Shown here: positions 1,337 to 22,091 of the stretch, one piece after another
Numbering within the stretch: position 1 is the stretch's first letter
Layout of the letters: each line of letters opens with the position of its first letter
Source: an uncultured Bacteroidota bacterium
GTDB lineage: Bacteria; Bacteroidota; Bacteroidia; Bacteroidales; P3
Direction of reading: 5' to 3'
DNA: 64,000 bases
Assembly (NCBI GenBank): GCA_902775135.1
Contig: CACYKY010000006.1
Span: 124,001 to 188,000, forward strand
Notes under the pieces: model-generated
Seen by the model: the letters and a program-made list of their open reading frames with translations, nothing else
What the model was told of the DNA's origin: nothing
Database searches by the model: none
Position numbers and translations under genes: made by a program

Positions 1337-1753
1337 TTATTTATATGCTATACATGTATATAGGTTTGTTTTCTCATCAAATGTTATCCGTACTTGATAC
1401 CCCTCTCCAGCTTTTTCCTTTGCCCATGCTGCAGCCTGATCGCTACTATCTGTAACATAGGTGACAACATCTTTTGTTACCCCAGGCTGTGGAGTATAGT
1501 TGTTGTCGTAAAAAACGACCTCATAACCCTTGCGGGCTAACGCTATCAGTTGAACAAGCAGCGAGTCATATTCGTCTTCACTGTGTAGGGTTACTGTTTG
1601 CTGCACCCCATTGACAGAATAATGTACTATGTATACATTGGTGTTAAAACCTGTCGTTTCCTGTGCTGTGTCAATGAAGGTGTCTTTTTGACAGCCGACA
1701 GTCAGGGTTGAAAGCACGGCAAGGAGTGCCAGGGGGAAAATTCTTTTGTTCAT
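1337..1753 (-). CDS. Sigma-module gene 4 (copy 1): small lipoprotein of unknown function
   Basis: 138 residues. The N-terminus is a lipoprotein signal: basic MNKR, hydrophobic run, then TLTVGC at Cys21, followed by QKD. The mature part is about 115 residues with two GY-V segments (ALARKGYEVVFY and GEGYQVRITF) and ends YTCIAYK. It aligns by eye with the protein at 21693-22091, which shares CQKD at the lipobox, ALARxGY, the WAxE helix and the terminal YTCIAxK. Its ATG overlaps the stop of the preceding gene (ATGA, 1750-1753), so it is translationally coupled to it. I do not recognise a described family. Expected location is the periplasmic face of a membrane, or the cell surface. Confidence 0.8.
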   Translation of the reverse strand: MNKRIFPLALLAVLSTLTVGCQKDTFIDTAQETTGFNTNVYIVHYSVNGVQQTVTLHSEDEYDSLLVQLIALARKGYEVVFYDNNYTPQPGVTKDVVTYVTDSSDQAAAWAKEKAGEGYQVRITFDEKTNLYTCIAYK

Positions 1754-2247
1754 TTTTCTTTCAGGTTTATTGTTTGTTGATAGAATATCGCATCTATTTG
1801 TTCTTCGTTTTCGATGTGGAAAATGGTTATGGTTTGCTTGTAGTAGTATATGGCTATTATGTCGTTATTCAAAATGGCAGTATCCATCGGAGCATTGTAT
1901 TTGTGCTTGGGTGCATACTTTATGTCAACCGTATTGCCACCCATAGGGATAGGGAACTCCGGGGGGAACGTCAGAATGTTGAAATCGTCTTTAATACGGA
2001 CCCAGGAGGAGTCGTTTTTGGCTTCCAGGAGGGTGACGTCGACAAAGACGGTATCGTTGAGTTTGAAATCCTTGAGAAAGACGACGTTGAAGTCCTCGTT
2101 GCCGGCATAGCGGGTGTAGACTTCGCTGACCTCGCGCGAGGGGAAGAACCAGTACCAGCGCTTCCAGAGGGTGATGACCGCAAGGTCGACGAGCAAGAGT
2201 ATGCCTACCCACATCCAGAAACGTCGTATGTTCGTCTTTGTATTCAT
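1750..2247 (-). CDS. Sigma-module gene 3 (copy 1): membrane-anchored protein of unknown function
   Basis: 165 residues. One N-terminal membrane helix (residues about 10-28) without a lipobox, then a soluble domain that should lie outside the cytoplasm. The stretch SEVYTRYAG just after the helix corresponds to SEVYRRYCD in the paralogue at 21218-21709; both also share VTLLxAxxxxxW and a C-terminal IFxxEN segment. It starts 36 bp after gene 2 and ends in a 4-bp ATGA overlap with gene 4. Function unknown; its place between a sigma factor and a lipoprotein suggests part of an envelope signalling chain, which is inference. Confidence 0.75.
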   Translation of the reverse strand: MNTKTNIRRFWMWVGILLLVDLAVITLWKRWYWFFPSREVSEVYTRYAGNEDFNVVFLKDFKLNDTVFVDVTLLEAKNDSSWVRIKDDFNILTFPPEFPIPMGGNTVDIKYAPKHKYNAPMDTAILNNDIIAIYYYKQTITIFHIENEEQIDAIFYQQTINLKEK

Positions 2248-2283
2248 TTTCGGTTCCTCGTTGTGCTATTTCTTTCGAGATTC

Positions 2284-2595
2284 CTATATCAGGGAGAGGA
2301 TTTGGGATACGGTGTCGGCGGCCTGCGCAGGGAGGATGTCGCCATAAAAGGCATTCCCCGTGAAGTCGGGAGCTGGCGCAGCCGCATAGGCGGTGTCGGC
2401 ACCGATGGTGAAGAGGGCGAAGAGACAAGCCGCCAGGGCTGTGCGGAGAAAGGCATCATGGCGACGGCGGCGGGCACACCATTTCTCGAAGTCGGCGTCA
2501 TGAGCCGATATCAGGGCACGGATATGGTCGAGGGCTTGACGGTTGCGGGCGGCCTCGGCGTTGATGATTTCTTCAATTTCTTGTTCTGTCTTCAT
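2284..2595 (-). CDS. Sigma-module gene 2 (copy 1): single-pass membrane protein, possible anti-sigma factor
   Basis: 103 residues: about 47 charged residues rich in Arg/Glu, one membrane helix (FLRTALAACLFALFTIGA), then a tail of about 35 residues. This is the shape of a small anti-sigma factor with the N-terminus in the cytoplasm. The paralogue at 20943-21221 has the same size and topology although sequence identity is low. The ATG overlaps the stop of the sigma gene (ATGA, 2592-2595). No zinc-binding HxxxCxxC motif is present, so it is not a classic ZAS anti-sigma factor. The anti-sigma role is inferred only from position and topology. Confidence 0.7.
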   Translation of the reverse strand: MKTEQEIEEIINAEAARNRQALDHIRALISAHDADFEKWCARRRRHDAFLRTALAACLFALFTIGADTAYAAAPAPDFTGNAFYGDILPAQAADTVSQILSLI

Positions 2596-3095
2596 ATTTT
2601 TTTTGTGTTTTTTGCCATTTTCGATATGATGCGTTGTCTCATTTTCTTGACGGCCCCGACGGTCATCCCAAGTTTCTCGGCAATTTCTTTTCCAGAGTAG
2701 CCTTCGAGGGTGAAGGTGAGCAGCCGGTATTCCGTCGGGGTGAGTCCGACAGCGAGCTCCTCCAGCAGTTCTCGGTGGTCTGTGCTTGAGTTGTCGGCCA
2801 CCGTGTCTGCCAGGCGGTCATCGATGGACAGCCAGTCGGGATCCTTGTGTCGATGGCGGTGCGAGAACACGCTCTGGCATTGCCACGTTACCCACGCCAT
2901 CTGCTGCAAAGGGTTGCTGTCTTCGCGCAGAGAGGAGAGATGGGACCAAATGGACACACAACAGTCCTGCACCAGCTCTTTGCAGGTGCTCTCGCTGCAG
3001 GACGAGTGCCACCAACAAAGGGTGCGTATCAACCCCATGTGTTGCTTGAGCAAGCCGTCGAACAGTTTATATTCTGGATCCTTTTCCATGTCCAT
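2592..3095 (-). CDS. Sigma-module gene 1 (copy 1): ECF-type RNA polymerase sigma factor
   Basis: 167 residues from the ATG at 3095 (MDMEKDPEYKLF). The frame is open to 3179, but the extra N-terminus has no counterpart in the paralogue. Region 2 is recognisable in CKELVQDCCVSIW (compare DLVQEvfLrlW) and region 4 in LTPTEYRLLTFTLEGYSGKEIAEKLGMTV..., a normal helix-turn-helix. The protein should direct RNA polymerase to a small regulon. It heads a four-gene operon whose genes 2 and 4 start in ATGA overlaps. Paralogue: 20430-20939. Four cysteines in region 2 are unusual for the family. Confidence 0.88.
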   Translation of the reverse strand: MDMEKDPEYKLFDGLLKQHMGLIRTLCWWHSSCSESTCKELVQDCCVSIWSHLSSLREDSNPLQQMAWVTWQCQSVFSHRHRHKDPDWLSIDDRLADTVADNSSTDHRELLEELAVGLTPTEYRLLTFTLEGYSGKEIAEKLGMTVGAVKKMRQRIISKMAKNTKKI

Positions 3096-3258
3096 TTTGT
3101 TCTGTCTCTCTGTATATATTATAACCACCAAAATGCCAAAAGGTGACATTAGAGGTGTGTTTTTATGATTTTTTAACACTTCTTAAGTTCAATCCGTAAA
3201 CGCAACACTTTGAAAAATAAGTAATAGAATTACGTACAAGATTTTTTATTGACTATTT
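3096..3258. other. Spacer between sigma module 1 and the recombinase
   Basis: About 160 bp. It should carry the promoter of the minus-strand sigma module; the minus strand reads TTTTGG...TTATAATATATACAG at about 3110-3135, which is only a loose match to the Bacteroidota promoter. No terminator with a T-run was seen behind the recombinase. Confidence 0.4.
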
Positions 3259-4272
3259 TTATTGATGAAGGGTCAGACTAGGGAGTTTGCGTAGGGCTTT
3301 GGCCTTGGTCTTGTTCAGCAGGTCGGCATAGACCTTTGTCGTTCCTATGTCCGTATGACACATCAGCTGTTGTACCGTGTAGATGGGTACATCTTTTGTC
3401 AGCAACAGTACGCAGAAGGTATGGCGTGCACTGTGGAAAGAGACGGGCTTCTTTATCTTGGCCTTTTTGCACCACCGCTTCAACACCTCATTGACCTTTT
3501 GATTGGTCTCTTCCTTGAAAACATATTCGCCACTTCGTTTCTGCGCACGCAGTAGGGCTTCCGCTTCGGCGCACAACGGCAATCGCTCATAGGTGTCGGT
3601 CTTCTGTTGGTGGAACTCCAGTTGCAGGTGTTTGCCATTGCGCTTCACATCCTTCCAGCGCAGCCCCTGCACATCGCCATAGCGTAATCCTGTCATGCAA
3701 GAAAACAGGAACATGGTTTGAATATTGTTGTATTCATCAGACAGCTTGGTTTTTGTCAGGTTTTTCAAATCCTTCTCTGTCAGAAAACATCTCTTTTTCT
3801 GTTCTCTTTTGGGGCGTTTTACACGCTGAAGAATTCGGTCGTCGAAAAAACCGTTCTTATAGGCATCGTGGAGGACACAAGCCAGTTTTTGGAAATACAA
3901 CCGTACGGTGCCGGTCATCAAGCCCTGAGACTGGAGATACTGGATAAAGTCTTGGAGATAGGCGGTGCTGACTTTTTCGATGGTGGTGTCACCATAAGCC
4001 TCAAGAAGTCGGCACATAAGACGATACGTATCTTTGGTCTGGGGTTTAATGTTGGCTGACGCTGCGTAAGATTTGGTATACTCCAGCAGGCTAATGGTTG
4101 GTTTCTCCTCGGCTTGACCGCTACCAAGACTGGCAGAATATTGGTAACGGGTGCTGTTGGGAAAAACATCGGAAGACAGGGAGATACTGAGTTCTCCTGT
4201 AGCTGAGTATTGGATAGAGACTACGGAAAACCGGAAATCTGATTCAATTTTAATATTCATTGTGTCAATCAT
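3259..4272 (-). CDS. Tyrosine recombinase / site-specific integrase
   Basis: 337 residues. The N-terminal half is a SAM-like DNA-binding domain as in Bacteroidota phage_int_SAM_5 integrases. The C-terminal catalytic domain has all key residues: Arg in TGLRYGD (about residue 197), HSARHTF (His and Arg, about 280), His in LMCHTDIG (about 304) and the nucleophile Tyr in KVYADL (about 315). It therefore looks intact and able to cut and rejoin DNA. It is divergent from the RHS-tip genes and next to sigma module 1. No other mobile-element genes (mobilisation, phage structure) are present in the window, so it is either a remnant or a dedicated local recombinase. A second ATG lies at 4260. Confidence 0.93.
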   Translation of the reverse strand: MIDTMNIKIESDFRFSVVSIQYSATGELSISLSSDVFPNSTRYQYSASLGSGQAEEKPTISLLEYTKSYAASANIKPQTKDTYRLMCRLLEAYGDTTIEKVSTAYLQDFIQYLQSQGLMTGTVRLYFQKLACVLHDAYKNGFFDDRILQRVKRPKREQKKRCFLTEKDLKNLTKTKLSDEYNNIQTMFLFSCMTGLRYGDVQGLRWKDVKRNGKHLQLEFHQQKTDTYERLPLCAEAEALLRAQKRSGEYVFKEETNQKVNEVLKRWCKKAKIKKPVSFHSARHTFCVLLLTKDVPIYTVQQLMCHTDIGTTKVYADLLNKTKAKALRKLPSLTLHQ

Positions 4273-20429: not shown

Positions 20430-20939
20430 ATGAAAACGGACGTCGAAAGATACAAGACCCTGCTGCAGCGCCATCAGAAACTCATCTGGTGGCTATGCTT
20501 CAACCAATCCCCGACCAACAGCATGCGCTGCGAGGACTTGGTGCAGGAGACCTGTATCACCCTCTGGGAGCATTTCGACACGCTGCCTGCCGACGCCAGT
20601 TCCTGGGAGGAGACCCTGTGGGTGGAGCAGCGCACACGCGACACCCTGCGCTCCCAGCGACGCCGCCACCGACGCCAACCGCAACTGGTGAACCCGCCCG
20701 ACGGCCTGGAGCACCTTGCCGCCCACGACGATGCCGCCGAAGCCCGCGAGCGTGTCCAGGAACTCCTCTCCTCCCTCCCCGAGGAGGACCGACGCCTCAT
20801 GCAGATGCGCAACGAGGGCTACAACGCACGGGAAATAGGACAGGCTCTGGGAATCGAACCCAACGCCGTCTACCAGCGCGCCTTCCGCATACTGGCACGC
20901 CTGAAGAAAAACGAAACCAAACAAACAAAGAAAGGATAA
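20430..20939 (+). CDS. Sigma-module gene 1 (copy 2): ECF-type sigma factor
   Basis: 169 residues. Region 2: CEDLVQETCITLWEHF; region 4: LPEEDRRLMQMRNEGYNAREIGQALGIEP..., a helix-turn-helix. It aligns along its length with the sigma factor at 2592-3095 (for example MGLIRTLCWWHS against QKLIWWLCFNQS, and KELVQDCCVSIW against EDLVQETCITLW), so the two are paralogues. It heads a four-gene plus-strand operon with the same gene order as copy 1. The upstream sequence contains a near-promoter TAAGATTTG at about 20369 (one base too long). Confidence 0.88.
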   Translation: MKTDVERYKTLLQRHQKLIWWLCFNQSPTNSMRCEDLVQETCITLWEHFDTLPADASSWEETLWVEQRTRDTLRSQRRRHRRQPQLVNPPDGLEHLAAHDDAAEARERVQELLSSLPEEDRRLMQMRNEGYNAREIGQALGIEPNAVYQRAFRILARLKKNETKQTKKG

Positions 20940-20942
20940 CCT

Positions 20943-21221
20943 ATGGAACAGACAACAGACAACACACCCCTTCCCTCCGATGCCGAACTGGGGTTCGACC
21001 CCGGAGAACTGCTGAGACAGATGACCGACGGCCTGCCGCAATGGCACCACCGCCAGCACGAGCGCCTGCTGACGCTGCGGCTGTGCACCACGACGATGGC
21101 CCTCTTCGCGCTGCTCATACCGACGGCGTACCTCCTGGCGCCGACGGACAACAACCACATCGCCGACGGCATGACCTATGCCCAGGTTGTACAACTTACC
21201 GACAATATGCTCTGCGCATGA
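20943..21221 (+). CDS. Sigma-module gene 2 (copy 2): single-pass membrane protein, possible anti-sigma factor
   Basis: 92 residues: about 46 mainly polar residues (LLRQMTDGLPQWHHRQHERLL), one membrane helix (TTTMALFALLIPTAYLLA), then about 25 residues outside. Same layout as the gene at 2284-2595. It starts three bases after the sigma stop and its own stop overlaps the next ATG (ATGA, 21218-21221). The anti-sigma role is inferred from order and topology. Confidence 0.7.
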   Translation: MEQTTDNTPLPSDAELGFDPGELLRQMTDGLPQWHHRQHERLLTLRLCTTTMALFALLIPTAYLLAPTDNNHIADGMTYAQVVQLTDNMLCA

Positions 21222-21709
21222 AGCCACGCCACTACATAGCCCTCGCCCTTGCCTTCGTGGGCACCGCCATCAGCATGGTGCTGCTCACACGGCCGCGCCC
21301 GCTGCCCGCCAGCGAGTGCAGCGAGGTCTATCGTAGGTATTGCGACACCTCCGGCATCAGCGCCTCCTACCTCGAAGACTACCCCCTCGACGACTCCACC
21401 ACCATCGCCGTCACCTTGCTCCAGGCTCAAGACTCCGCCACTTGGGCGGAAACCGTCATCTCCTTGTGCTGCAACAACAACCACAATGACTACACACCAG
21501 GCGAAATAAAACTATATCCCATCAAAAAGGCAAACGCTGACCAATTACCCGATAGTGCATTTAAAAACGAATACATAGTAATATCCTACTTTTACGACCT
21601 TACCATTGGAATATTCAAAGTTGAAAACAAAGACCATCAAAAAATCATCATAGATCATTATATTGAACTACTAACAAAAAAGATCAAAGACAATGAAACG
21701 AATTATTAG
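21218..21709 (+). CDS. Sigma-module gene 3 (copy 2): membrane-anchored protein of unknown function
   Basis: 163 residues from the ATG at 21218; the frame stays open far upstream but that part is the shadow of gene 2. One membrane helix (YIALALAFVGTAISMVLL), then SECSEVYRRYCD and a domain ending in IFKVENKD...IELL. Shares SEVYxRY, VTLLxAxxxxxW and the IFxxEN region with 1750-2247. The 5' two thirds are G+C-rich and the last 200 bp much more A+T-rich, as is gene 4. Overlaps gene 4 by 17 bp. Confidence 0.75.
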   Translation: MKPRHYIALALAFVGTAISMVLLTRPRPLPASECSEVYRRYCDTSGISASYLEDYPLDDSTTIAVTLLQAQDSATWAETVISLCCNNNHNDYTPGEIKLYPIKKANADQLPDSAFKNEYIVISYFYDLTIGIFKVENKDHQKIIIDHYIELLTKKIKDNETNY

Positions 21710-22091
21710 AACAACTGCCTGTGTGGCTCTTCTGACCATGACAACCGTCAGTTGCCAAAAAGACGGAATGTACCAGCAGAACACAAACGAATCCCTATGT
21801 GGTACAACCTTGTACTACGCTGTTGATGGGGTATCGCACGAAACATCTTTTTACGACAACAATGGGTGGGATATGATAATGAATAATCTATTTGCATTAG
21901 CGCGGCAAGGATACACCATTGTAATCCATACAAATACAAATAATATACCTATAAAAGATAAAGAAACCATTACATTCACAACTACCAGCGAATCGGAAGC
22001 CAAAGAATGGGCAAATGAAATGGTAACCCTAGGGTACACTGTAACTATTACGTTTAAATCAGGCGTTTACACATGTATAGCAGAAAAGTAA
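21693..22091 (+). CDS. Sigma-module gene 4 (copy 2): small lipoprotein of unknown function
   Basis: 132 residues. Lipobox at TMTTVSC followed by QKD, exactly as in the paralogue (1337-1753). The mature part has FALARQGYTIVIHT, a WANEMVTLGYTVTITF helix-strand and the same terminal YTCIAxK. The coding is clearly more A+T-rich than its neighbours. Starts 17 bp inside gene 3. Confidence 0.8.
   Translation: MKRIIRTTACVALLTMTTVSCQKDGMYQQNTNESLCGTTLYYAVDGVSHETSFYDNNGWDMIMNNLFALARQGYTIVIHTNTNNIPIKDKETITFTTTSESEAKEWANEMVTLGYTVTITFKSGVYTCIAEK

Follow-up and report, generated by a model that had tools for sequence, protein, structure and literature searches.

Two copies of a four-gene set lie in the window (the whole 64,000-nucleotide stretch of DNA analysed), each encoding an ECF sigma factor, a small one-helix membrane protein (g2), a membrane-anchored protein with a periplasmic domain (g3) and a lipoprotein (g4). 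The set proposed in the first-pass annotation is real, and both copies were read where it had placed them. Copy 1 occupies the minus strand and begins with the sigma gene (3095-2592; 167 amino acids, with regions 2 and 4 and without region 3). This is followed by g2 (2595-2284; 103 amino acids), a candidate minimal anti-sigma factor with a short predicted cytoplasmic side, an Arg-rich stretch directly before its one transmembrane segment and a short periplasmic tail. The third protein, g3 (2247-1750; 165 amino acids), occupies a DUF4252-like slot and combines an N-terminal transmembrane anchor with a periplasmic alpha-beta domain that carries the motif SEVYTRYA. The fourth, g4 (1753-1337), is a 138-amino-acid lipoprotein with the lipobox VGC-QKD (C21, then QKD) and a C-terminal GYxVxIxFDxxTNxYTCIAxK that is kept in family alignments. 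Copy 2 runs on the plus strand and encodes a sigma factor of 169 amino acids (20430-20939), a 92-amino-acid one-helix membrane protein that is likewise a candidate minimal anti-sigma factor (g2; 20943-21221), a 163-amino-acid protein with a transmembrane anchor and a periplasmic domain (g3; 21218-21709) and a 132-amino-acid lipoprotein with the sequence SC-QKDG (g4; 21693-22091). Identity between the copies is 28% for the sigma factors, 21% for g2, 26% for g3 and 36% for g4, and gene-by-gene values this low (21-36%) mark them as old paralogues.

The 4-nt ATGA overlaps noted earlier in copy 1 are present between sigma and g2 (2592-2595) and between g3 and g4 (1750-1753). Overlaps and short gaps make coupling of neighbours plausible in both copies, but do not establish the fixed production ratio once read from them. 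Copy 2 is joined differently: sigma and g2 are separated by 3 nt, g2 and g3 meet in ATGA, and g3 and g4 overlap by 17 nt. The open reading frame immediately preceding copy 1 (3259-4272), also on the minus strand, resembles a tyrosine-recombinase integrase by its sequence, and no such frame was noticed at other copies. A search of a plasmid collection gave no DNA match.

Both first genes encode ECF sigma factors (sigma-70 group IV; sigma2 and sigma4, no sigma3), as the first-pass annotation had read gene 1. The copy 1 protein matches TIGR02937 (E = 6e-15) and PF08281 (E = 4e-8), and that of copy 2 matches TIGR02937 (E = 9e-21), PF08281 (E = 1.5e-9) and PF04542 (E = 2.6e-7), all over cut-off. 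When superposed, the sigma2 and sigma4 domains agree with solved ECF domains to about 2-2.5 A. More specific models fit less well: the PG_0214-type sigma model NF058625 scores 25.9 and 48.7 bits, below its curated cut-off of 130 bits, and the Bacteroides FecI-type model TIGR02985 scores 30 and 47 bits, far under its cut-off of 126.

The g2 proteins share an Arg/Lys-rich inner flank before the single transmembrane helix in nearly all aligned paralogues, together with a short outer tail. Class I anti-sigma factors (ASDI/ZAS) have a recognisable anti-sigma domain over 50 amino acids, often with Hx3Cx2C, and class II factors (CnrY-like) wrap sigma2 and sigma4 with a short cytoplasmic segment of two helices, followed by one transmembrane helix. 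A Pfam scan of 34 g2 proteins and the two window copies found neither a class I anti-sigma model nor FecR, and the window copies of g2 have no Pfam or NCBIfam match. A PDB sequence search with g2 gave no significant match, and a profile built from DUF4252-linked membrane proteins reaches just 10-15 bits, for the g2 copies of module L, the P type and g92, which is suggestive at most. In Bacteroidetes, class I anti-sigma genes adjoin only 6% of ECF sigma genes, and control of the rest has been left open (PMC7406223); because the share is so small, anti-sigma factors outside class I are to be expected in this group. In copy 2, sigma and g2 share a reading frame with a single TAA between them, so the pair could be modelled with AlphaFold as one artificial read-through chain (window 20430-21218, TAA read as Gly; pTM 0.60). 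Most of the sigma part has pLDDT 92-98, the linker is disordered (below 50), and g2 residues 20-28 and 31-64 are helical, mostly at pLDDT 92-96 and falling at the end, a range that a lone transmembrane helix would give too. A minimal anti-sigma factor of the CnrY kind would yield such a prediction, which is support rather than proof.

For g3 of copy 1, AlphaFold gives a confident model (pLDDT 91.8, pTM 0.79) in the order transmembrane helix, short helix, two strands, helix, three strands, helix. Compared with the PDB, this fold has no usable match (best Foldseek E = 0.33; best VIA Z = 4.5), and a PDB sequence search with g3 gave no significant match. The solved periplasmic protein 4poi, which the DUF4252 profile touches at E = 0.69, is absent from the g3 fold-search matches. 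No Pfam model fits g3, and a family scan of 49 g3 proteins did not report DUF4252; this places g3 outside DUF4252 by the Pfam criterion, though it fills the DUF4252 slot. Its anchor differs among copies (transmembrane segment, lipobox or signal peptide), and this variation argues for an extracytoplasmic site of action. In Bacteroidota, the signal that sends lipoproteins to the surface (LES) is C-x-K-(D/E)2 after the lipobox cysteine (PMC5080379); among 41 g4 proteins, 32 have C-x-K-(D/E) at this position and only 8 carry the complete signal. A PDB sequence search with g4 gave nothing significant, and its contact with protein L (E = 0.1) was taken as chance. No curated Pfam or NCBIfam family matches g2, g3 or g4, in the window copies or in members from across the genus. 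At the level of these models, then, genes 2-4 do not coincide with known anti-sigma or polysaccharide-utilisation partners, which had been put forward as the observation that would undo the original proposal.

The complete second copy reported earlier proved to be an undercount. The genome (2.57 Mb, 39 contigs), searched with sigma, g3 and g4 queries and read locus by locus, contains 14 g3 modules, all of them in the order sigma, one-helix g2, g3, and two further related sigma loci (G and H) without g3. Locus G (L051:2877-3978) has an in-frame TAG in region 2, its region 4 is fused in a single open reading frame to a transmembrane helix and an outer part, and a BspA-LRR protein adjoins it. A g4-type fourth gene is present in 9 of the 14 modules, as a short lipoprotein (A, B, D, F, I and K) or as the N-terminal part of a long lipoprotein (M, N and O). 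Modules C and J have instead a T9SS-tail or BspA-LRR protein, module L has a TonB-plug/outer-membrane barrel protein, and module E runs toward a contig end. The system is thus a three-gene core with a swappable fourth gene, not a fixed set of four. Modules D and E (L049:2782-6432) are divergently transcribed neighbours with one common intergenic region; in other genomes, pairs at L119 and L121 also lie close together on opposite strands, divergent or facing. In the sigma tree, ten of the genome's own sigma factors (those of nine modules including copy 1, and that of locus H) form one clade (support 99/93), those of M, N and O form a separate clade (97/97), and that of P falls within a clade of DUF4252-linked sigma factors (98/98), where its placement has support of 87/84 and its branch is long.

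The first-pass annotation asked how often the genes are adjacent, with homologues of genes 2-4 at random distances from the sigma gene as the contrary outcome. Searches with a closer subset of the g3 alignment found 77 g3 loci beyond the window's own genome, and in 74 of these a sigma gene lies within 52-900 nt ahead of g3 on its strand, so not at random distances; the gap mostly contains one membrane protein of about 80-280 amino acids. Of the three exceptions, one is at a contig edge (L093) and two look decayed (L147, L149). The g4 domain follows g3 directly at 44 of 73 testable loci. At L074, L076, L077, L086, L094 and others, g2 is longer (170-280 amino acids), with apparently several membrane helices and a similar short tail at its end; since such forms occur in many species, the anti-sigma slot itself is widely diverged. 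Within the window's own genome alone, Mantel tests on paralogue distance matrices gave positive correlations for sigma-g2 (r = 0.48, P = 1e-4), sigma-g3 (r = 0.35, P = 0.005), g2-g3 (r = 0.35, P = 0.004), g3-g4 (r = 0.61, P = 2e-4) and sigma-g4 (r = 0.46, P = 0.01), and a weaker one for g2-g4 (r = 0.29, P = 0.08). Modules have therefore mostly been copied whole, and since the correlations are moderate, some exchange of parts between modules is possible. The idea that the set is inherited as a unit accordingly survives for the core, given its synteny and largely joint divergence, and needs correcting for the fourth gene, which is not fixed.

From g3 profile matches, we infer that the window belongs to the genus Candidatus Colimorpha (Bacteroidales), described as UBA1711 of family P3 (PMC8957277). 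The profile matches 57 of 59 sampled genomes of this genus, with 1-15 matches each, and all 35 genus genomes that are >=90% complete. In wider samples it is rare: it was detected in 2 of 177 genera of the order (295 genomes sampled) and in 2 of 140 genera of the phylum (296 genomes), one of the latter being the window's own genome and the other marginal (E = 6e-4), in searches with a first-look filter that can miss distant relatives. The g4 domain is likewise almost restricted to the genus, with weak matches elsewhere. Named g3 loci include Candidatus Colimorpha merdihippi; most of the others come from bins of rumen and horse-gut Bacteroidales. Outside the genus, the closest relative found lies in a different family of the order (L096, L097), where a sigma gene, a membrane protein gene and a g3-like gene form a locus present in one copy.

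Upstream of copy 1, the promoter region (3113-3178, minus strand) contains a TGTTAAA box (3178-3172), TTTTGGC (3141-3135) and TATAAT (3123-3118). TGTTAAA occurs upstream of 28 of 77 modules, compared with 3.9 in shuffles and, sigma A itself being excluded from the comparison group, with 5 of 87 non-module genes at the fetched loci (Fisher P = 1e-6); for the window's own genome alone the count is 6 of 15 (P = 0.001). TTTTGGC and TATAAT-like elements often come after the box, so that module promoters resemble those of the housekeeping TTTG / TATAAT type, apart from the added TGTTAAA box, which is also present before some non-module genes. A search of module upstream regions for a sigma-specific -10 motif brought out only these housekeeping-like -35/-10 elements and TGTTAAA. 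Paired GTTAAA-N4-GTTAAA sites number 9 in the genome, against 2 for a backward control; two are at modules, and the rest mostly precede genes for apparently secreted or envelope proteins. At the GTTAAANNNNGTTAAA sites of G000 (L218-L226), the GTTAAA boxes are 10 nt apart and lie upstream of TTTTGGC/TATAAT-like promoters. The paired boxes may mark a regulator common to modules and envelope genes.

We consider it likely that each set forms a self-contained envelope signalling unit, composed of a sigma factor, a minimal membrane anti-sigma factor, a periplasmic relay and an outer sensor or output. The predicted two-helix cytoplasmic segment of g2 would hold the sigma factor, its single transmembrane helix would span the inner membrane, and its short periplasmic tail would receive the signal. 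The g3 protein would be a membrane-held periplasmic relay domain, in the slot taken by DUF4252 proteins in the wider order, and g4 an outer-membrane, possibly surface-exposed lipoprotein that could serve as sensor, output or both and that is exchanged between copies. An envelope stimulus would change g4, g3 or both, upon which g2 would release the sigma factor through proteolysis or a change of shape, and the freed sigma factor would transcribe its targets, probably including its own operon. Such autoregulation is unproven, because the promoters look housekeeping and the TGTTAAA box also stands before other genes.

The same promoters bear on a different role for g2, that of a membrane tether or co-activator, with the sigma factor controlled through operon transcription and not through sequestration: primary-sigma-like operon promoters with a common TGTTAAA box could be the real control point, and g2 lacks a known anti-sigma domain. 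We regard this as unlikely, since the position and small one-helix shape of g2 are those of anti-sigma genes, sigma and g2 co-diverge strongly, and this slot is filled in DUF4252-type operons elsewhere by a larger membrane protein, which for PG_0215 has been called a putative anti-sigma factor. A further alternative is compatible with the anti-sigma role of g2 and differs in what gene 4 does and in how large the regulon is. Each module would be a private switch whose sigma factor chiefly drives its own operon, with gene 4 as output and not sensor, and the many copies would be a repertoire of separately switched surface proteins. Exchange of the fourth gene among short or long lipoproteins, T9SS-tail/BspA-LRR proteins and a TonB-type barrel speaks for this alternative, as does the co-divergence of g3 and g4, but no sigma-type promoter was identified before gene 4, TGTTAAA pairs precede other envelope genes as well, and the genes overlap or nearly so, which makes sensor and output indistinguishable. 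It is a possibility, though less likely than not. Bacteroidales often have many ECF sigma factors. The modules might on that account be multiplied ordinary FecI/FecR or polysaccharide-utilisation sigma systems, and sigma loci H and L do adjoin outer-membrane barrels, but the lack of FecR in every g2 scanned, the TIGR02985 scores far below cut-off and the lack of a SusC/SusD match among the scanned fourth-position genes make this origin very improbable.

Returning to the signalling unit, the family offers a uniform, much-repeated candidate answer to what controls the other Bacteroidetes ECF sigma factors, namely a minimal, membrane-anchored anti-sigma factor whose gene has a constant position, and its natural paralogue pairs are material for tests of partner specificity. 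The family also shows how a single genus of herbivore-gut bacteria can multiply one regulatory operon and exchange the fourth gene like a cartridge. We tentatively suggest that in Candidatus Colimorpha the sigma / anti-sigma / DUF4252 operon has become a library, with up to about 15 mutually insulated signalling units in a genome of 2-3 Mb. Each unit might combine a surface lipoprotein or T9SS protein of its own with a miniature anti-sigma factor whose sequence class is new, and a sigma factor private to the unit would read or switch that surface protein.

Among known systems, ECF sigma factors with a one-helix membrane regulator are also found in FecI/FecR/FecA, sometimes beside an outer-membrane barrel as at loci H and L; the modules differ in having no FecR domain, and those of the window have no TonB receptor. 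The likeness to CnrH/CnrY (class II) is one of layout and not a sequence comparison: CnrY has a very short cytoplasmic part with two helices before a single transmembrane segment (PMC7406223), as predicted for g2, whereas the metal sensor CnrX is absent here and the partner genes are other. The closest parallel is the sigma / membrane protein / DUF4252 arrangement, so the earlier statement that no described system has this set was too strong. Operons of this kind are on record in Porphyromonas gingivalis (PG_0214-0218 and PG_0985-0987), where they are raised under H2O2 (PMC10101095, PMC10434189); PG_0214-0218 are co-induced, with PG_0215 as the putative anti-sigma factor (PMC10101095). Another is listed in a published table for Prevotella bivia (PMC11410844). 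Among DUF4252 loci sampled in the order, 25 of 30 lie behind a sigma gene, and at those that were read a membrane protein usually precedes the DUF4252 gene as well. Like the modules, DUF4252 operons comprise a sigma factor, a one-helix membrane protein, a small exported domain and further small genes, and g3 and DUF4252 share an N-terminal LYxRYa-x-pGvxxVxI motif. Alignment of g3 with DUF4252 by hhalign reaches probabilities of 93.4 and 93.8 over the N-terminal 27-50 columns only, and the DUF4252 profile (PF14060) has no match in the whole genome at E = 10. Differences lie in g2, which in this genome is mostly half the size of the larger membrane protein of DUF4252 operons and has no recognisable N-terminal domain, in the sigma factors, which are mostly in clades of their own, in the copy number of up to 15 per genome and in the dedicated short lipoprotein as fourth gene. 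We conclude that the modules are not wholly new in kind but a version of the sigma / membrane protein / DUF4252 arrangement that has diverged and multiplied; systems of this general design are known from Bacteroidota, and the multi-copy form, almost restricted to one genus, looks to be undescribed.
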